Shown here: one piece after another, positions 1 to 45,040 of the stretch
Position numbering within the stretch: position 1 is the first letter of the stretch
Layout of the letters: each line of letters begins with the position of its first letter
NCBI RefSeq assembly: GCF_029960785.1
Contig: NZ_JASBQE010000081.1
Coordinates: forward strand, 1 to 55,198
Length of the DNA stretch: 55,198 nucleotides
Source: Polyangium sp. 15x6
GTDB lineage: Bacteria; Myxococcota_A; Polyangia; Polyangiales; Polyangiaceae
Direction: 5' to 3'
The notes under the pieces: generated by a model
What the model was told of the DNA's origin: nothing
Database searches by the model: none
What the model saw: the letters and a program-made list of their open reading frames with translations, nothing else
Position numbers and translations under genes: made by a program

Positions 1-1061
1 AGCGTGACGACGGCGGCGAGGCCGAGGAAGCGGCGCGAGCGCGAGGGAGCGCGCGCGCTCGGCGCGGGCGGCGTGCGATGCGTGGCGGCGCGGCGCGGCG
101 ACGAGCGGGTCGTCGTGGCGCGCGCGGAGGTGTTCGCGGGCGGGCGCGGCTCCTTTCCGGAGCGACGCGCGGCGGTCGCGGGCTCGTCGTTTCTGCGCAC
201 GAGCGTCGTGATCGGCGTGGCGAAGGGCGCGAGCAGAGCGGCGATGTCCTCCATCGAGCCGTAACGATCGGCGGGCTCCTTGGCGAGCGCGCGCAGGACG
301 ATGGATTCGATCTCGGGCGGCACGCCGTCCATCGGCGGCGGGTCGTCGCTCAGGATCGAGGCGATGAGGCTCACGGGCCCGCGATCCGAGCGGAACGGGA
401 GCTTGCCCATGAGCAGCTCGTACGCGGTGACGCCCCAGGCGAATTGATCGGCCCGCGCGTCGATGAACTCGCCCTTCACCTGCTCGGGGGCCATGTACGC
501 GGGAGTGCCGATGAACGAGCCGTCGCCGGTGCGCGTGGCGAAATCGTCCTGCCCCTCGGCGGCGAGCTCGTCGTCGGTGCGCCGCGCGATGCCGAAATCG
601 AGGACCTTGATGGCGCCGTCCTCGCGGATCATCACGTTCTCGGGCTTGACGTCGCGATGCACGAGCCCGGCGCGGTGCGCGACGCAGAGGACCTCCGCGA
701 CCGCGGAGAGCAAGGCGATCCGCTCGCCGATCGGCGCGTCTTTGCGGATGAGGTCGCGCAGGAGCTTGCCCTGCACGAGCTCCATCGCGATGAACGGCGT
801 GCCCTCGTGCTCGCCGACGTCATAGACCGCGACGATGCCGGGATCGCTCAACGCCGCGGCGATCCGCGCCTCGCGCAGCATGCGACGCACCTGCCGGCTC
901 CACGATTCGCTCGCGCCCTGGGCGTCGCGGCGGAGCACCTTGAGCGCGACGGCGCGACCGAGGCGCGTATCCTGCGCGCGATACACCTCGCCCATGCCGC
1001 CTTCGCCGAGCAGCGCTTCGACGACGTACCGATCGAACCTGTCTCCAGGCGAAAGGGGCAT
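1..1061 (-). CDS. Ser/Thr protein kinase, 3' end cut by window edge
   Basis: This is the N-terminal part of a eukaryote-type Ser/Thr kinase. About 353 residues are visible and no stop occurs before the left edge. The glycine loop GEGGMGEV lies at about residues 19-26, the ATP-anchoring Lys is K41, the catalytic HRDVKPEN is at 135-142, DFG is at 155-157, and a GTPAYMAPEQ activation segment follows. After the kinase lobe comes an Arg/Ser/Thr-rich linker and the start of a hydrophobic stretch at the window edge, probably a membrane anchor. Over the first 160 residues it aligns without gaps to the kinase at 4893-1960, and I count 107 identities. It starts 54 bases after the methyltransferase stop and on the same strand, so it may be co-transcribed with the borosin-like genes. 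The substrate is unknown. Confidence 0.92.
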   Translation of the reverse strand, partial: MPLSPGDRFDRYVVEALLGEGGMGEVYRAQDTRLGRAVALKVLRRDAQGASESWSRQVRRMLREARIAAALSDPGIVAVYDVGEHEGTPFIAMELVQGKLLRDLIRKDAPIGERIALLSAVAEVLCVAHRAGLVHRDVKPENVMIREDGAIKVLDFGIARRTDDELAAEGQDDFATRTGDGSFIGTPAYMAPEQVKGEFIDARADQFAWGVTAYELLMGKLPFRSDRGPVSLIASILSDDPPPMDGVPPEIESIVLRALAKEPADRYGSMEDIAALLAPFATPITTLVRRNDEPATAARRSGKEPRPPANTSARATTTRSSPRRAATHRTPPAPSARAPSRSRRFLGLAAVVT

Positions 1062-1115
1062 GGCGCAGAGGGTAGCGCGAAGGGAGGTTCGCCGGAAGGA
1101 TGGCGAGGGCGCGAT

Positions 1116-1913
1116 TCAGCGCTTCAGGTGCTCGGATCTGATGCTGAGCGCGCCGCACGTCTCGTCGTCGAGTTCGTCGCGCAGGGCCGGGGGAACGTAG
1201 AGCGTGGTGGCGGGGCTGAGCTCGGCGTCGGCGAGGGCGCCGAGGGGGATACGCTCGATACGCGCAGGGCAGTTGATGAAGATGGCGGCCTCGTAGAGCG
1301 TGACCTCGTGGTTCTCGGGGTAATGCTCGCGGAGCCGCTCGACGAGGAGGTGAATCCAGCGGCCTCGATTGCGCTGGGGCTGGTACGTCGGGTCGCCGAA
1401 GCTGCCGACCTGCCACAGGATCAGCGCGGACGTGGGGTCGATGGGCTTCCTGTACAGGACGAACCGCGTGGCCTCGTGGCTCACGCAGCCCGGGTTCGCA
1501 GGGTCGACGCCGAGGTCGGCGAAGAGACAGTCCTCGGCCGAGACGGCGGGGAGCATGATGGCGTCGTAGCCCTCGGCGCGCGCCTTGCGCACCGCCTCGT
1601 GGGTCGGGAAGGCGAAGACGCCGGGATGGCCGTACGCCGCGAAGCACGTCCGGTGGCCATCACGCACGGCGCTGAGGACGCGCTCGACCATCGCGTCGTA
1701 CGCCTCCTTGCGAGCCCCACCCAGCCGGTAAAACCGGCCGAGCGATTCCGCGGCGGGCTGGATCTGCTTGATCACCTGCTCGCCCACGATGTCGGCGACG
1801 AGGTAAAACACCTTGCTCGACGCCTTCAACCTGGCAATGGTGTCCCCGCCGAGCTGACCGACCGTCCTGATGCCGGTCCCCACGACGGCGAGCGACCCCT
1901 TTTCTTTGATCAT
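1116..1913 (-). CDS. Borosin-type peptide backbone N-methyltransferase (split borosin, SonM-like)
   Basis: This 265-residue protein has the tetrapyrrole-methylase fold: an N-terminal VVGTGIR glycine motif, YGHPGVFAF at 94-102, a SAEDCLFADLG segment near 125-135, and a C-terminal half typical of the class. It resembles the split-borosin methyltransferase SonM of Shewanella more than cobalamin or siroheme methylases (for example GHPGVF, ISAEACLWADLG-like and FYxxxGxxxxRxxY blocks). Tyr62, Arg68, Tyr72 and Tyr94 reproduce the spacing of Tyr66, Arg72, Tyr76 and Tyr98 in the fungal borosin enzyme OphMA (6, 4 and 22 residues apart). The protein ends soon after the fold, so no peptide is fused to it. 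The expected reaction is SAM-dependent alpha-N-methylation of peptide bonds in a partner peptide, and the likely partner is the product of 5261-5034. The start is the ATG at 1913, 46 bases after the upstream kinase stop. The remaining alternative is a tetrapyrrole methylase, which the Tyr/Arg set argues against. Confidence 0.88.
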   Translation of the reverse strand: MIKEKGSLAVVGTGIRTVGQLGGDTIARLKASSKVFYLVADIVGEQVIKQIQPAAESLGRFYRLGGARKEAYDAMVERVLSAVRDGHRTCFAAYGHPGVFAFPTHEAVRKARAEGYDAIMLPAVSAEDCLFADLGVDPANPGCVSHEATRFVLYRKPIDPTSALILWQVGSFGDPTYQPQRNRGRWIHLLVERLREHYPENHEVTLYEAAIFINCPARIERIPLGALADAELSPATTLYVPPALRDELDDETCGALSIRSEHLKR

Positions 1914-1959
1914 CCTGCGCGATGCCTCCCATGCCCGCGGACGACACGCGCCGCGGGCT

Positions 1960-4893
1960 TCATTCGCCGCATTTCAATGCCTTCGCCCGAACAGCGGCCG
2001 CCTGTGCCGTGACCGAGCCTTTCACCCGGCCCCAGCGCCCGAGTACAGTGCGGTACGCGGCGCACGCGCCGGATTTGTCGTTCCGTTGCTCCCGGACGAG
2101 CCCGAGGCGAAAGGTCGCGACCGTATGCTGCATGGGCTCGTCGAGCGCCGTGCAGGAGCGAGCGGCGATCTCGAGGTGCGGCAGGGCGCGCTCCGCATCC
2201 CCTGCCAGGCTATGAAGGCCGCCGAGCCACATCTCCACCTTGGGCGCCATTTGTGTATAGAATGCCGCAGGCTGCAGCGGGGGCTGCACCGCGAGGGCCT
2301 CCCGCGCCTCGGCCTCGCTCCGTGCAGGCGCCGCGTACCCGACGAACCAGACGGCCGCCTGTTTCGTATCGCCCGTCCCGTCGACCCAGCCATTGGCCCA
2401 CGCCTCGCGCGCCGCGGCGTATCCTGGAGTGTCGAGCGCTCCTCCCCGCCGCTTCGCCTCGAGGAAGGCCATCGTCGAATCCCACCAGGTGAGCTGAACG
2501 ACCGGCCTCGTCCACGCCGAGCGTTGCGCGAGGAATCGATCCGCGACCTCGGCGGCCCGTTTGTCTTGGCCCAGCTCCTCGTAAAGCTGGACCAGCGCGA
2601 GCGCCGGGACGACGTGTTTCTCCTCCAGCGATTCGCCCGCGATGTCCTTCTCCAGATCACGGGCGAGCCGCTCGGCGGCCTCGAAGTCGCCGAAGACCAG
2701 GGCGTGATGGATACGCAGCCGGCCGGCCTGCTCGATGCGCCCCTGATCCCGGAACCTCTTCGCGGCTTGCTCGACGGCGGCGTTCACGGCCGGAGGAGGC
2801 TGCCCGCCGGCGTGGAGAGCGACGGCGAGCTCGTTATGCGCGATCGCCGAGGTCGGGGCCTTGGTGATCCAGCGGCGCACGTCGCCCTCGAGGAGATCAC
2901 ATTGGCCGAGGTACTTGCGCGCGCGGATCCGTTCGAGCAGGCAATCCACCGACGCCGGCACGAGCTCGACGCAACGATCGAGCGACGCCAGCGCCTCCGT
3001 TTGTCGTTCGACCCGGAAGAGCGAATAGGACCGCACCTGCCAGCAATCGGCGTATTTCGGATCGAGCTCGATGCAGCGGTCGGCGAGCGCGAGGAGCCTC
3101 GTAGGCTCGGCGCGCGCCTGAATGGCCACCTGCAGCTCGACGAACTCGGCGTCTCCCGGATACCGCCGGGAGGCCTCCTCGATACGCTTGACGCCCTCGG
3201 CCACGTCCGGCGGATCCCGCTGCAGGAGCGGCTCGAGCGCGTCGAGCAGGACCTTGTCGCGCTCCGTCATCGTGCCGCGGAGCTCCATGGCGCGCTGGAA
3301 TGCCATCCGCGTCCCGGCGGTGTCCGCGCGGAACCGCTCGATCAGCGCCAGGCGTAGATATGCCGAGCCAAACTTATTGTCGGCCTTCGTCGCGCGATCG
3401 AAGGCCCCCCGCGCGACCTCCCAGGAGGCGTCCCGCAAGGCTTGCAGGCCTTCCTTGTACGCGGTGAGCGCCTCGGGGTTCGACGATCCCGAAATGGGCA
3501 GCTCCGTGATCGGCGTGGGCGCGGGCGCGGGCGTGGGTATGGCCACGGGCGGGGGCGTGGTGTTCTTCCGATACCAGAGGGTCCCCCACACCGCCGCGGC
3601 CACGACCCAGATCGCGCTGAGGCCCACCACCGCCCAGCGCGGCAATCGCCGTCCGAGCCTCGGCGGGGGCGTCGTCAGCATGGCCGGCGATTCGAGCGTG
3701 GTCACCGCCGTCGTCGTTTTCCCCGCGTTCCCCGGCATCTCCACGCGCACGATGGGCGTGGGCGGCGGCGCCGTGCTCCGGCCGGGCTTGTCGTGATCCG
3801 GCGAGCGCATCGTGTGCGTCGCCAGCGCGTTTCGCGGCGGCGGCGTGGACTCCGACTTCGCGCCGATCGGGATGCTGGGCAGCGTCTTCCGGGCCGGCAG
3901 GACGCGCGCGTTCGGCGCCACGTCCTCCGGGGCCAGGGTCTCCGGCTGCGTGGAGTCCGGCCCCGGGATCAAGGCATCGTGCAGGCCGCCCGCGTTCTCC
4001 GCCGCGACGTAAGGCGCGAGCGCGTCGACCACGAGATCCATCGAGGAGAATCGGTCGATCTTGCGCTTCGCGACTGCGCGCTTGAGGACACGCTCGATCA
4101 CCGACGGCACGAGGCCTTCGAGCGACGGCGGCTCGTCCTGCAGGATGGCCGAGAGCAGCTTGATGCCTTCGAAGTCCGCGCCGAACGGCACGCGGCCCGT
4201 GATGAGCTCGTACGCGAGCACGCCCCAGCCGAATTGATCCGTCCTCGCGTCGACCGGATCGCCCGTGAGCTGCTCGGGCGCCATGTACGCCGGGGTGCCG
4301 ACCATCACGCCTTCGCTCGTGACCGTGTCGGCCCCGCGCATCGACCCGACCTTGGCCAGATCCGCTCCGCGCCGCGTGGAAGCGACGGCCTCGTCGGCGT
4401 CGAGGTGCACGCGCCGCGCGATGCCGAAGTCGAGGACCTTGATGGTGCCATCCTCGCGCAGCATCACGTTTTCCGGCTTCACGTCGCGGTGCACGAGGCC
4501 TGCGCGATGCGCGGCGGACAGGGCGCGCGCCACGTCGAGCAGCCACCCGAGTCGCGTGGAAATCGAGGCGCCGCCGCCGATCAAGCGCCGGAGCGACAGG
4601 CCCTCGATGAGCTCCATCGCGAGGTAAGGCAGGCCCTCGGCCTCGCCGATGTCGTAGATGGCGACCGTGTTCGGGTGGTTCAGCGCCGCGGCGGCGCGGG
4701 CCTCGCGCAGCATGCGAACGAGGGCGCGCTGCCAGCCCTCGGGATCTTCAGCGGCCTCTTTGCGCAGGACCTTGAGCGCGACGCGACGTCGCAGACGGCT
4801 ATCGCGCGCCTGATACACCTCGCCCATGCCCCCCTCGCCGAGGAGCGCTTCGATCACGTACCGGTCGAAGGTGTCGCCCGGGCGTAGGCGCAT
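1960..4893 (-). CDS. Membrane Ser/Thr protein kinase with C-terminal TPR region
   Basis: This 977-residue protein begins with a complete kinase domain: GEGGMGEV at 19-26, K41, HRDVKPEN at 135-142, DFG at 155-157 and GTPAYMAPEQ. The catalytic residues needed for activity are all present. A Pro/Thr-rich linker follows, then one membrane helix at about residues 416-440 (AVVGLSAIWVVAAAVWG). The last ~510 residues are helical TPR-like repeats, such as the repeats around PEALTAYKEGLQALRDASWE. The predicted layout is a cytoplasmic kinase with an extracytoplasmic TPR sensor or scaffold. The gene lies between the putative borosin precursor (140 bases upstream) and its methyltransferase (46 bases downstream), all on one strand. 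Its kinase domain is the closest relative in this window of the one at 1-1061, so the two probably arose by duplication. A role in controlling or sensing the peptide product is an inference. Confidence 0.94.
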   Translation of the reverse strand: MRLRPGDTFDRYVIEALLGEGGMGEVYQARDSRLRRRVALKVLRKEAAEDPEGWQRALVRMLREARAAAALNHPNTVAIYDIGEAEGLPYLAMELIEGLSLRRLIGGGASISTRLGWLLDVARALSAAHRAGLVHRDVKPENVMLREDGTIKVLDFGIARRVHLDADEAVASTRRGADLAKVGSMRGADTVTSEGVMVGTPAYMAPEQLTGDPVDARTDQFGWGVLAYELITGRVPFGADFEGIKLLSAILQDEPPSLEGLVPSVIERVLKRAVAKRKIDRFSSMDLVVDALAPYVAAENAGGLHDALIPGPDSTQPETLAPEDVAPNARVLPARKTLPSIPIGAKSESTPPPRNALATHTMRSPDHDKPGRSTAPPPTPIVRVEMPGNAGKTTTAVTTLESPAMLTTPPPRLGRRLPRWAVVGLSAIWVVAAAVWGTLWYRKNTTPPPVAIPTPAPAPTPITELPISGSSNPEALTAYKEGLQALRDASWEVARGAFDRATKADNKFGSAYLRLALIERFRADTAGTRMAFQRAMELRGTMTERDKVLLDALEPLLQRDPPDVAEGVKRIEEASRRYPGDAEFVELQVAIQARAEPTRLLALADRCIELDPKYADCWQVRSYSLFRVERQTEALASLDRCVELVPASVDCLLERIRARKYLGQCDLLEGDVRRWITKAPTSAIAHNELAVALHAGGQPPPAVNAAVEQAAKRFRDQGRIEQAGRLRIHHALVFGDFEAAERLARDLEKDIAGESLEEKHVVPALALVQLYEELGQDKRAAEVADRFLAQRSAWTRPVVQLTWWDSTMAFLEAKRRGGALDTPGYAAAREAWANGWVDGTGDTKQAAVWFVGYAAPARSEAEAREALAVQPPLQPAAFYTQMAPKVEMWLGGLHSLAGDAERALPHLEIAARSCTALDEPMQHTVATFRLGLVREQRNDKSGACAAYRTVLGRWGRVKGSVTAQAAAVRAKALKCGE

Positions 4894-4966
4894 GGCGTCA
4901 TGCTACCCCGGTACGGGCGCATTCGCTAAGAACATGCTACGCGGCAAATTTTAGACAGGTAGAAGC

Positions 4967-4989
4967 GCACGCGGGCTCACCCCGCGTGC
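4967..4989 (-). terminator. Stem-loop downstream of the precursor gene
   Basis: A perfect 9-bp inverted repeat, GCACGCGGG / CCCGCGTGC with a 5-base loop, lies about 45 bases past the stop of the 75-residue peptide and before the TPR kinase start at 4893. There is no U-run directly after it on the minus strand, only an AT-rich patch near 4946-4953. It could act as a partial terminator or as an RNA-stability element that gives more peptide than kinase and methyltransferase mRNA. This is a position-based inference. Confidence 0.35.
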
Positions 4990-5033
4990 CTCCCCCAAGC
5001 ATCGCTCGGTATGCGGGACCCCCCCGGGGGAAC

Positions 5034-5261
5034 TCAAAACATCATGAGCACCGGGCAGTTCCACGGCGCCGAGGCGGGTCCGCCACGCTCCGTGCAAAGC
5101 CAGTCCGACATCAGCGCGGCGTTCGCGCTCTGCACGACCAGGCGCTCTTCCTCGCCCAGGTTGACCTGCTTCATCAGCTCGTCGGGGTCCTGGAGGAACG
5201 CGGCCAAACGGGACGGATCGAGGGCCATATCGGCCAAAAACCGACCAAGAGAAGCTTCCAC
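5034..5261 (-). CDS. Putative split-borosin precursor peptide (SonA-like)
   Basis: This small gene encodes 75 residues. Residues 4-55 look like a compact helical binding domain (LGRFLADMALDPSRLAAFL, then DPDELMKQVNLGEEERL). The layout matches the borosin-binding domain of SonA, which also has an N-terminal LxxFxxxLxxD helix, an 'NPEAVM..HGLTDEQ' turn and a final helix before the core. The tail from about residue 56 is flexible (CTERGGPASA) and ends in the hydrophobic PWNCPVLMMF, the likely core that receives backbone N-methyl groups. The start is the GTG at 5261, preceded by GGAG with a 6-base gap; no in-frame ATG lies close upstream. Codons 2-8 are AT-leaning, as is common at starts, while most later codons end in G or C, which supports true coding. 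A separate gene in another frame is unlikely here. The precursor role is inferred from domain pattern, size and the co-directional methyltransferase. Confidence 0.82.
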   Translation of the reverse strand: MEASLGRFLADMALDPSRLAAFLQDPDELMKQVNLGEEERLVVQSANAALMSDWLCTERGGPASAPWNCPVLMMF

Positions 5262-5344
5262 GTGGGGCTCCGTACGTCGTGCGGCTCTGAATCGACGATG
5301 ACTCCATCGCCCATTCGACGGGACGACAGGCCGGCAGTGGTTTC

Positions 5345-5374
5345 AGTTTACGTAGGAACGCTCGCGCAGGGCAA
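5345..5374 (-). promoter_or_regulatory. Candidate sigma70-like promoter for the precursor gene
   Basis: On the minus strand TTGCCC (5374-5369) and TAAACT (5350-5345) are separated by 18 bases. Each matches the sigma70 consensus at four of six positions. The site lies 84 bases upstream of the GTG start in a patch that is clearly richer in A/T than the surrounding genes. It would give the peptide gene its own transcript. The match is weak and myxobacterial promoters are variable. Confidence 0.33.
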
Positions 5375-28007: not shown

Positions 28008-28688
28008 ATGGTCATGCATATCGAGGACGGCAAATACACGCTCCAGCAGAACCGCAAAGAGGTCGGCCTGGTCGTTGTCACGGGCGGCGTGGAGCACTGG
28101 TATCTCTACAGGAAAGTGCCGACGGACAAGGACGCCACGCACGGTATCTACACGGCGCCGAGCGACACGGCGCGGCTTGGCACCCCCGGCTCGTTCGGGA
28201 CGGCGGAGGGCATCGAGACCACGTTCGTTCCCGAGACATCGTTCGATCCGAAGTCCTTCGATCCAAAGACCTTCCGGGCCCCGGCCGGCACCGACGCGAA
28301 ATACATCGAGGCGAGGTGCACCCATCTCGGCGAGGTCACGGCCGCGCGGGTGACGCGCATCGCGACCATGCCCGGGAACGTGGGACAGATCGATTGGGGT
28401 CCCTATCAGGTCTGGCAGAACGGAAAGCTCGTCGGATACGTCGACGTGGCTCCGTATCGAGAAGCCGGTGCCACGAGCGTCCGCGCGCACGAGAGCTGGA
28501 TGCTCTTCACCAGCGGATTCCCCAGCGATGGGGCCCATGGGAGCTACACGCCCCCCGGCGCCTCCGGCGGATCGTACGGCGTCCAGTTCGTCCGCCTGAC
28601 GAGCCCCTCGGGCCACGCGGCCACGCTCATCCCGACCGGGACCGTCTACGAGACGATTCTCGCCGATTGCAACGTCCCCACCCGCTGA
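28008..28688 (+). CDS. Hypothetical protein, 226 residues
   Basis: I do not recognise a family. The ATG at 28008 has an AAGGA site 11 bases upstream; GTG 27999 would be too close to it. The sequence is soluble, with aromatic-rich beta-prone segments (VEHWYLYRKVPTDKD, QIDWGPYQVWQNGKLVGYV) and a C-terminal half with Gly/Ser turns. No signal peptide is seen, even though the upstream gene encodes an exported protein. The last 43 bases overlap the 3' end of the convergent kinase gene, an unusual arrangement that supports both reading frames being used. Codon third positions are GC-rich throughout. Confidence 0.75.
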   Translation: MVMHIEDGKYTLQQNRKEVGLVVVTGGVEHWYLYRKVPTDKDATHGIYTAPSDTARLGTPGSFGTAEGIETTFVPETSFDPKSFDPKTFRAPAGTDAKYIEARCTHLGEVTAARVTRIATMPGNVGQIDWGPYQVWQNGKLVGYVDVAPYREAGATSVRAHESWMLFTSGFPSDGAHGSYTPPGASGGSYGVQFVRLTSPSGHAATLIPTGTVYETILADCNVPTR

Positions 28689-31117
28689 AGGAGCCGCGAG
28701 AGCGCCTCCTCGATCGAAAGCACGTCGAGCCGACAGGACGCATGCTCCGCCGGCACCGCGCTCGCCATCTCGGAGAGCGCCGCCTCCTCCACCGCCACGG
28801 CGACACCGCCCTCCGCGAGGAGCGCGAGCACCTGGATCCCCACGCTCGGCACCGGACAGGCGCGCGCCTTCGCGAGGATCGCCTCGACGTTCTCCCCCGA
28901 CAAACGCTCCCCCGCCGCGACGAGCAAGGCCCCCGCGACGAGCCTCCCGAGCGGATGCCCCGTCCCGGAAAAACACCGAAATGCCCGCCCGGCGAGCGCC
29001 CGCGTGGCCTCGGGATCCCCTTTCCGATACGCCACCGCCGCCTCCGCGACCGAAACGAGCCCCTCGACGTGCAGGCTCCCGAGCCGCGACGCGGCCTCCA
29101 CGAGCTCCTCGTCCGGCCCCTCGCCGTCCGTCTTCCCCGCGCGATAATCGATGCAGCGGCGCAGCCATTCGGCCCTCGCTTCGAGCATGGGCAGCCGGAA
29201 CCTCCGCGCGAGCTCCGCTGCCGCCGCCGCGCCCGCGGCCGCCCGCTCCAGCTGAAACGCCTCCATCCACGCCGACGCCGCATCCAGCCGCGCCGCGATC
29301 TCCGTCGATCGAAATGGCGTGCCCTCCGCCGCTTCCTCTTCGAGCCGCGCGGCCTCCTCGAATCGATTCTGGCAATACCTGAGCCTGCCGAGCCACGCCG
29401 CGTGCGCCGCCTGCGCCGCCCGATCCCCGCTCGCGAGCGCCCAGGCCCGCGCCTCCTCGAGCACCGCCTCCTCGCGCCCGAGCGACACGCGCCGCGCCGC
29501 GAGCACCCGCACCCCGTAACGCAACCGTTCGAGGCGTGGATCCGGTAGCCGCGGCAAACCCTCCGCCAGCTCGGCCGCGCGCTCGGTCCACGCATTCACC
29601 GCGAGCGCCACGCGCACGAGCCGCTCGAGCGCGCGCGTGAGTTCCGTCCCTGGCCCCGGCCGGCAAAGCTCGTACAGCGCGCGATCGAGCCCCTGCGGCG
29701 ACCCCTCGGTGAGCGCGATCTCGACCCATTGCGAGAGCAATCGTTCGAAGATGTCCGCGGGCATCTCCGAAAAACCCCGCAACGCCCGGAGCCCCTCTTC
29801 GAGATGGAGAACGGCGCGCGCGAGCCGCCCCTCCGCCGCGAGCGCGGCCGCCGACGCCATCGCCTCCTCCGCAATGGCGAGCGCCGGCGGCGCGCCCTCG
29901 GCCACGAGCATGCTCGCGAGCCGCACCGGCGTTTCGAGCGCGTCGATCGCCTCGCGATTCATCGCCAGCAAATCCCCATCCCACCGGCAGAGCCCCGCGC
30001 TCGTCCAGGCCTCGATCTCTTGCTCGATCCGGGCCGGATCCCCGCCGGTGCGCGAAAACAAGAGACGCGCCGCGTCCTCCCGGAGGTGCAGCAGCCGATC
30101 CGGCCCCGCGAAAAGCGTTCGCAGGTCCGCCTCCTCGATTGGTTTGTCAGAGGCGATGATTGCTTGCACGGCCGACGGTGTCCGCGAAGCGCCCCCTCCC
30201 CGAAGAACCTCGGCGACCTCGGCCGCCGAGCGCGGGCGTTCGTCGGAATTCGTGGCGAGCAGCCGATCCACCACGGCCGCGACATGCGCGGGCACCCCCT
30301 CCACGAGCGACGCGAGCGCGGGCGGCCGCCCCGTGAGTTTTCCGCGCAAAAGCTCCGCGAGGTCCGCCGACGCATGCGGAAATCGGCCCGTGAGCGCATG
30401 AAACGCCATCACGCCGACCGCATAGAGATCCGTCCGCGCGGAGAGCGGCAGTTCGGCGATCTGCTCCGGCGCGAGATACGCCGCCGTGCCCACGATCATC
30501 CCCACGCCCGTGATCCGCTCGGCCGTCGCCGCGCTCAGGCACGAGAGCCCGAAATCGAGGATCGTCGGCCGCCCCGCCCCGTCGACGAGCACATTGCCCG
30601 GCTTGAGATCCCGATGCAAGAGACCCACGGCGTGCACCCGCGCGAGCGCCTCGCAGAGTTTCACGAGCGGCCGTTCGAGCGCGGCCCACGTGCAGGGCAC
30701 GGCCACGCCCGGAAATGGCGCGCCCTCCGCGCGTTCCATCACGACGAACGGATGCTCGTCCTCGATTCCCTCGTCGATGAGCCGCACGATCCCGGGGAGC
30801 CGCAGGAGCCGGAGCGATGCGACCTCCCGGCAAGCACGCGCGGCGAGCTCCCCCGTCCCGGGCCGCAGGATCTTCAATGCGACGCGCTCGCCCGACAGAC
30901 GATCGTGCGCGTCCCACACCTCGCCATGACCGCCGCGCCCGAGGCGCCCATCGAGCCGATATCGCCCCGCGATCCACGCTCCTTCCCGCGCGAATTGCGG
31001 CAGCGGCAGCACGCCGCTCACGTGCGCGGCGGCCCGCAGAAACGCGTCCGACTCGCCGACGTCCTCGAGCCCTTCGAGATCGAGCGTATCGAGCGATTCG
31101 TCGGGCGCGGAATTCAT
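28646..31117 (-). CDS. Ser/Thr protein kinase with C-terminal helical repeat region
   Basis: The 823-residue protein has an N-terminal acidic segment (about 1-50), then a full kinase domain: GRGGHGEV, VALKIL with the ATP Lys, HRDLKPGN in place of the usual KPEN, DFG in ILDFGLS, and GTAAYLAPEQ. From about residue 330 to the end it is composed of Leu/Ala-rich helices that resemble TPR or AAA-associated repeats, without a membrane helix. Thus it is likely a cytosolic kinase. It begins 4 bases after the stop of the sigma factor gene at 31760-31122, which strongly suggests one operon and functional coupling. The KPEN to KPGN change still leaves the metal-binding Asn. Confidence 0.93.
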   Translation of the reverse strand: MNSAPDESLDTLDLEGLEDVGESDAFLRAAAHVSGVLPLPQFAREGAWIAGRYRLDGRLGRGGHGEVWDAHDRLSGERVALKILRPGTGELAARACREVASLRLLRLPGIVRLIDEGIEDEHPFVVMERAEGAPFPGVAVPCTWAALERPLVKLCEALARVHAVGLLHRDLKPGNVLVDGAGRPTILDFGLSCLSAATAERITGVGMIVGTAAYLAPEQIAELPLSARTDLYAVGVMAFHALTGRFPHASADLAELLRGKLTGRPPALASLVEGVPAHVAAVVDRLLATNSDERPRSAAEVAEVLRGGGASRTPSAVQAIIASDKPIEEADLRTLFAGPDRLLHLREDAARLLFSRTGGDPARIEQEIEAWTSAGLCRWDGDLLAMNREAIDALETPVRLASMLVAEGAPPALAIAEEAMASAAALAAEGRLARAVLHLEEGLRALRGFSEMPADIFERLLSQWVEIALTEGSPQGLDRALYELCRPGPGTELTRALERLVRVALAVNAWTERAAELAEGLPRLPDPRLERLRYGVRVLAARRVSLGREEAVLEEARAWALASGDRAAQAAHAAWLGRLRYCQNRFEEAARLEEEAAEGTPFRSTEIAARLDAASAWMEAFQLERAAAGAAAAAELARRFRLPMLEARAEWLRRCIDYRAGKTDGEGPDEELVEAASRLGSLHVEGLVSVAEAAVAYRKGDPEATRALAGRAFRCFSGTGHPLGRLVAGALLVAAGERLSGENVEAILAKARACPVPSVGIQVLALLAEGGVAVAVEEAALSEMASAVPAEHASCRLDVLSIEEALSRLLQRVGTLQSARIVS

Positions 31118-43150: not shown

Positions 43151-45040
<1,890 letters not shown>

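Follow-up and report, generated by a model that had tools for sequence, protein, structure and literature searches.

Are the protein kinase genes interleaved with the genes of a putative peptide-methylating system in the soil bacterium Polyangium sp. 15x6 partners of that system or chance neighbours? The question is posed by contig NZ_JASBQE010000081.1, analysed here at its full length of 55,198 nucleotides (the window; contig G000:C255 of a 13.4-Mb genome). An original prediction, made by inspection of these nucleotides, described four co-directional units, namely a small peptide with a borosin-type binding domain, a TPR kinase, a SonM-like methyltransferase and a second kinase, and read them as a split borosin system with built-in Ser/Thr kinases. 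All four frames were found on the minus strand at the predicted positions, and a recount returned the predicted gaps of 140, 46 and 54 bases. Two details needed correction: gene calling finds no additional part of the block in the stretch 5262-5374, and kinase 2 is not a whole unit, the window holding an incomplete gene whose remainder lies on contig C244 together with two more kinases. Judged by sequence and predicted fold, the identity of the block as a split borosin module is well supported. A functional link between the kinases and the borosin genes is supported by their position, by a second-site gene trio, by the specificity of a TPR subfamily and by recurrence in other phyla. In the labels used below, G000 is the window genome, G148, G149, G151 and G152 are among its congeners, C denotes a contig and L a locus.

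In a Pfam scan, the methyltransferase matched PF00590 (TP methylase) at 1.7e-15. Its best match among solved structures was SonM (1.8e-55), and all 25 solved sequences at 1e-3 or better were either forms of SonM or fungal peptide N-methyltransferases, including the borosin enzymes MroMA and dbOphMA. The predicted kinship with SonM is thus borne out. In the structure-database alignment, residues Y62, R68 and Y72 align with Y58, R67 and Y71 of SonM, which stabilise the deprotonated amide (PMC8429565). R68 and Y72 are the same in all 20 relatives compared; Y62 varies. Four TP methylases of the window genome score above the Pfam cut-off, two of them of borosin type. A quick tree was built from 96 borosin-type rows (omitting L040-L044, which are copies, L038, and second domains below 250 bits in L086 and L100). 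The other two TP methylases, labelled CobA-like and RsmI-like by us, served as outgroup and paired with each other apart from these rows, their end branches having a length of 10 (support 83), and the methyltransferase did not group with tetrapyrrole methylases of the CobA/RsmI type. Solved relatives and tree both oppose a grouping with cobalamin or siroheme methylases, the outcome that would have undone the original prediction. Relatives of the enzyme occur in 10 of 183 genomes of the order, all six Polyangium genomes among them, and the ratio of nonsynonymous to synonymous substitution rates (dN/dS) between congeners is 0.14-0.33, in line with purifying selection. Two loci of our wider scan, L095:9995-11671 and L101:9992-11611, hold single frames with two tandem borosin methyltransferase domains.

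Because searches with its single sequence were uninformative, the precursor is placed only by family profile and fold. Such searches returned a weak Pfam hit (LigA, 0.021) and no useful match among solved structures in the PDB. A 25-row profile that includes the precursor matches SonA at 7.7e-18 and also, at 2.5e-4, a segment of OphMA-type enzymes around residues 320-375. The searches proposed at the outset for enzyme and small gene have in this way led to SonM and SonA, respectively. An AlphaFold2 model predicts five helices (residues 5-58) followed by a low-confidence tail, with a mean pLDDT of 75.9; the SonA binding domain is likewise a five-helix bundle (PMC8429565). With this model, Foldseek returned SonA chains as 29 of 31 matches, at E-values of 0.6 or worse, with root-mean-square deviations of 1.4-2.6 in 24 of the 29 and target TM-scores of up to 0.83. 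Profile, model and Foldseek agree on a separate precursor with a five-helix binding domain, one mark of a split borosin. Automatic gene calling placed the precursor start at a later ATG. The earlier start at 5261 holds up, the same codon position being ATG in three of the five congeners and GTG in two, and paralogues opening with the same first helix. The tail, CTERGGPASAPWNCPVLMMF, does not vary as far as WNCP among the six Polyangium genomes and is variable beyond, and the precursor dN/dS of 0.21-0.35 between congeners again indicates purifying selection. The window genome also encodes, on contig C204, an orphan binding-domain protein of 170 residues (L129:9129-9641(+); binding domain E 3.8e-16); its long tail has no Pfam match, and no methyltransferase was found in the 19 kilobases (kb) scanned around it.

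The two window kinases match Pkinase in Pfam at 4.6e-40 and 2.5e-44, and both carry HRD at residue 135 and DFG at residue 155. In kinase 1, a hydrophobic transmembrane stretch begins at residue 421 and a TPR superhelix at about residue 473. The C-terminal 536 residues are predicted to form a helical superhelix (pLDDT 83.2) whose closest structural matches are TPR proteins, O-GlcNAc transferase among them (E 1.8e-7), with TM-scores of only 0.28-0.37. Kinase 1 is also under purifying selection between congeners (dN/dS 0.20-0.30). Myxobacterial TPR Ser/Thr kinases have an N-terminal kinase domain, one transmembrane helix and a C-terminal TPR part, and kinase 1 shares this layout. The first bases of contig C244 overlap those of the window, and the rest of kinase 2, followed by kinases 3 and 4, is found there. 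The array ends with a GAF-SpoIIE gene (L128:7996-9630(+), contig C244; SpoIIE 1e-44), and at four loci of the congeners (L022, L023, L024 and L027) a gene that starts similarly comes after kinase 4. SpoIIE domains are Ser/Thr phosphatases, and pairing kinases with a phosphatase would be in keeping with a role in signalling.

In all five congeners, the order precursor, kinase 1, methyltransferase, kinase 2, kinase 3, kinase 4 is kept; the concern that the small gene might show no conservation beside its homologues did not materialise. The precursor has the mutase as its neighbour in four of the five (none is called in G148). Additional precursor/methyltransferase pairs lie among the kinases, one in G151 and two in G152, and six other genes precede kinase 4 in G152. 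Of the 16 methyltransferase genes in the six Polyangium genomes, 12 have a kinase on the same strand, either directly adjoining or with only a precursor between. A second precursor-kinase-methyltransferase copy lies elsewhere in G148, G149 and G151, where the methyltransferase is 57-58% and the TPR half 54% identical; judged by the first residues of called genes, the flanks of these second sites look different among the three congeners. The TPR half of kinase 1 has 31 matching places in the five congeners. Borosin loci account for every one of the best 23 of the 31 (E 1e-96 or better), with 20 in the arrays and three at the second site. Eight weaker matches make up the rest (2e-67 to 2e-17), and at the seven of these that were searched no methyltransferase and no binding-domain protein was found in 18 kb; the match at G149:C1:11470561, and one on G000:C275, lay outside this check. 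The TPR subfamily of kinase 1 is thus concentrated at borosin loci. The assignment of the kinases to the system in the original prediction is supported by this conserved and repeated linkage, and its further idea, that they sense or control the peptide, is a conjecture; in speaking of a pair it understated their number, the array holding four, and other lineages differ in kinase architecture.

Linkage beyond the genus was assessed in a scan of 84,980 genomes that gave 494 relatives, of which the 77 loci kept are the nearest relatives and not a random sample of borosins; the six-frame step covered frames of at least 60 residues. At the 72 loci outside Polyangium, 17 same-strand kinase domains lay within 4 kb of the methyltransferase and two at 4-10 kb, for 521,862 and 644,511 bases searched, respectively (binomial p 7e-5). 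With related loci merged by hand, the same-strand counts were 10 versus 2 (p 0.007), and with both strands counted they were 19 versus 4 (p 2e-4). A same-strand kinase within 5 kb was present at 16 of the 72 loci, belonging to Acidobacteriota (6), Cyanobacteriota (4), Planctomycetota (2), Myxococcota (2), Actinomycetota (1) and an unclassified genome (1). At L112 the order is kinase-methyltransferase-kinase-methyltransferase, the enzyme and the second kinase abutting. On the quick enzyme tree, the kinase label changes 13 times, compared to 27.5 in shuffles, with at least seven changes forced by starred branches; 13 may be too many, because the flanks are short in 25 of the 72 loci. On this tree the label clusters by kinship, yet has been gained or lost several times. 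An iterated profile found a binding domain within 8 kb at 66 of the 72 outside loci, the profile having been iterated on the same loci that it counts from a first pass built on 18 Polyangiaceae peptides. That first pass gave 94 rows at E 0.01 or better across all scanned loci, and at seven negative-control loci no binding-domain match was better than E 0.36. No binding-domain match below 1e-3 was obtained at L065 (1.5e-3), L056, L046, L103, L081 and L080.

Precursor tails differ among the kinase-linked loci. Those of the second-site precursors (L028:13032-13559(-), L029:4958-5485(+) and the same gene in L030) continue from a core-like SPWSCPYxLGCP into a long Ser/Thr-Arg repeat tail. The 176-residue L028 frame has 28 Ser and 10 Thr, and the eleven Ser/Thr-Arg and SVR repeat units counted in its tail are unlike the other precursors examined. 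By their composition, these tails are a candidate kinase substrate. No such Ser/Thr richness is seen in the precursors of other kinase loci, which have DPDPDP-type tails in cyanobacteria and Lys-rich tails in two Acidobacteria, and a Ser/Thr-rich tail was rejected as a general mark of kinase-linked precursors, being confined to the L028-L030 type. The DPDPDP-type tails mark a separate borosin type in Polyangiaceae and cyanobacteria (L034-L037; L094, L096, L106 and L114). A giant kinase of 1357-1900 residues lies near these precursors, none being called in L037. At L034-L037, a protein of 354-385 residues, matching TPR at three of the four loci, adjoins the precursor, and FHA-domain regulators adjoin the L035 (other strand) and L037 loci.

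Our favoured reading, to which we give an even chance, is a split borosin module with dedicated receptor-like kinase partners that read the methylated peptide. The precursor would dock through its five-helix domain onto the separate methyltransferase, which would methylate backbone nitrogens in the C-terminal tail, the probable site of the core. The Ser/Thr kinases whose genes lie between and behind those of precursor and enzyme would be dedicated partners, with the kinase domain in the cytoplasm and the TPR superhelix beyond the inner membrane. In the most conjectural step, this superhelix would bind the methylated peptide or the precursor tail, altering kinase output. The scheme builds on what the computation shows: the family of the enzyme, the fold of the binding domain, the conservation of the genes, the recurrent linkage to kinases and the architecture of the kinase and TPR parts.

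Several observations weigh against it. Four of the 16 Polyangium methyltransferase genes are without a neighbouring same-strand kinase (on G000:C41, G152:C9, G152:C3 and G151:C129). Outside the genus, a kinase is evidently not required for borosins generally, since 56 of 72 loci have no same-strand kinase within 5 kb, a count in which short flanks often make the absence uninformative (L056 and L081 end just upstream of the enzyme), and since among the 47 loci with full 5-kb flanks 11 have one and 36 do not. The C-terminal parts of ten scanned kinases comprised TPR in six, WD40 in one, FGE-sulfatase in one and nothing named in two; beyond these ten, L063 has FGE-sulfatase, and the single cyanobacterial giant kinase tested was AAA/GAF/SpoIIE. 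One shared binding mode is unlikely, because kinases elsewhere carry such domains and not TPR. Duplication accounts in part for the TPR family common to the kinases of the array, which are related in tandem. Neither in the block nor in the next six genes on the precursor side does Pfam name an exporter or a peptidase; those six are the mutase, a gene of the OmpA family, two genes with other domains and two lacking any Pfam match. Secretion toward an outer TPR domain is therefore left unexplained, a point that weighs against a secreted signal and gives some scope to a regulator acting inside the cell. A stretch of about 60 bases immediately upstream of the kinase 1 start (window 4894-4955) is conserved in all six Polyangium genomes, unlike the part of the gap adjoining the precursor, and may be a kinase 1 promoter or a separate translation signal. 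Because this separate conserved block precedes kinase 1, precursor and kinase 1 are possibly transcribed apart. The genome, finally, is kinase-rich, with 339 first-look candidates in its 13.4 Mb, of which 150 were scored.

The main rival makes the biosynthetic parts the kinase substrates: phosphorylation of the methyltransferase or of the tail of the precursor would be a further tailoring step or would switch the system on and off. The HRD and DFG motifs of kinases 1 and 2 would suit such a role, as would the Ser/Thr-Arg tails at the second site, and kinase domains of lanthionine synthetases are known to act in biosynthesis, the corresponding models remaining below cut-off here. However, precursors at the other kinase loci offer no comparable tail, and phosphorylation leaves the large sensor-like C-terminal domains unexplained; we consider this explanation rather unlikely, while giving it real weight. 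Alternatively, the precursor could be an intracellular regulator or adaptor that yields no secreted product and acts through its methylated tail, which would dock on the adjacent kinase or modulate it. The lack of a Pfam-named protease or transporter agrees with this, as does the long-tailed binding-domain protein with no methyltransferase in the 19 kb around it, but the TPR part is predicted past the transmembrane helix and an interaction between precursor and kinase is purely hypothetical. This strikes us as distinctly improbable.

It could also be that the kinase neighbours are accidental, a tandem array in a kinase-rich genome merely flanking the borosin genes. Synteny is general among the congeners, lipoprotein-like and OmpA-like genes being conserved too. 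The distance control within loci, the second-site trio, the specificity of the TPR subfamily and the repetition of the linkage in other phyla make such an accident very unlikely. Hardly credible at all is an enzyme acting on tetrapyrroles or other small molecules beside an unrelated small gene. The PF00590 label would allow it, as would the sole NCBIfam match, to the YabN model far under its cut-off, but the solved relatives to 1e-3, the binding-domain partner and the distance to the other two TP methylases of the genome all contradict it.

A split borosin module with kinase partners may be compared with systems already described. The type IV split borosin SonM/SonA of Shewanella oneidensis likewise has a separate methyltransferase, of 263 residues against 265 here, and SonA, like the window precursor, has about 75 residues and a five-helix binding domain, the catalytic Y58/R67/Y71 being in SonM (PMC8429565). 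The core differs, and the SonM/SonA cluster is without a kinase, the one kinase mentioned in the text of that paper being a cloning enzyme, whereas in Polyangium genes for receptor-like kinases stand among those of the borosin system. Borosin types 0-XI share the split architecture and include long post-core stretches (PMC11395268, PMC11285071). The word kinase is absent from the main text of both papers; the Fig. 1 legend of PMC11395268 names a GGDEF domain, a precedent for a link to a signalling domain. Outside the main surveys (Imani 2022; Cho 2022), which lay outside our search, no description of kinase-linked borosins was found in the literature as far as its text was accessible. Hanks-type kinase domains accompany a ribosomally synthesised and post-translationally modified peptide, as here, in the TOMM kinase/cyclase fusion (TIGR03903) and the LanL/LanKC lanthionine synthetases (NF038150, NF038151). 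Those systems have a cyclase or synthetase in place of the TPR repeats of kinase 1, and the window kinases reach 124.5 and 133.9 of the 705.75 bits set by TIGR03903. Against the PASTA kinase model NF033483 they score 262 and 286.5 of 450 bits, and Pfam finds no PASTA domain in them; kinase 1 has TPR instead.

Coordinates of the borosin block in the window.
Feature	Position	Strand	Remarks
Split-borosin precursor	5034..5261	-	75 aa, GTG start
Precursor binding domain	residues 1-58, about 5261-5088	-	
Loose precursor tail, probably with core	residues 59-75, about 5087-5037	-	
Gap between precursor and kinase 1	4894..5033	-	140 bases
Kinase 1	1960..4893	-	977 aa; Hanks Ser/Thr kinase, transmembrane stretch, TPR superhelix
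Borosin alpha-N-methyltransferase	1116..1913	-	265 aa
Kinase 2, first 353 residues	3..1061	-	Open at contig end; remainder on contig C244

Two other kinase-domain genes of the window, at 28646-31117 and 43151-45040, are distant from the block. The gap between precursor and kinase 1 contains a visually strong hairpin. Since it folds no better than shuffles (z -1.31) and z varies from +1.90 to -2.19 across the six Polyangium genomes, in stretches of differing bounds, an attenuator was rejected as a candidate and none is claimed.

The purpose of bacterial borosins is largely obscure. One bacterial borosin product has reportedly been described since 2021. In that year, according to PMC8429565, no split-borosin pathway had a known final product, and split borosins are widespread in bacteria (PMC11285071). 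A conserved kinase partner offers a receptor candidate together with a ligand candidate, and with them a handle on what borosins are for; its recurrence in distant bacteria hints at a signalling job for these peptides. We suggest, tentatively and as something that may well prove too broad, that borosin methyltransferases were co-opted more than once, across several phyla, for a peptide-kinase signalling module in which a backbone-methylated peptide is encoded beside its own transmembrane kinase receptor, so that some bacterial borosins would be signals or kinase ligands and not antibiotics. If true, this would provide a ligand class for some of the many orphan Ser/Thr kinases of myxobacteria.

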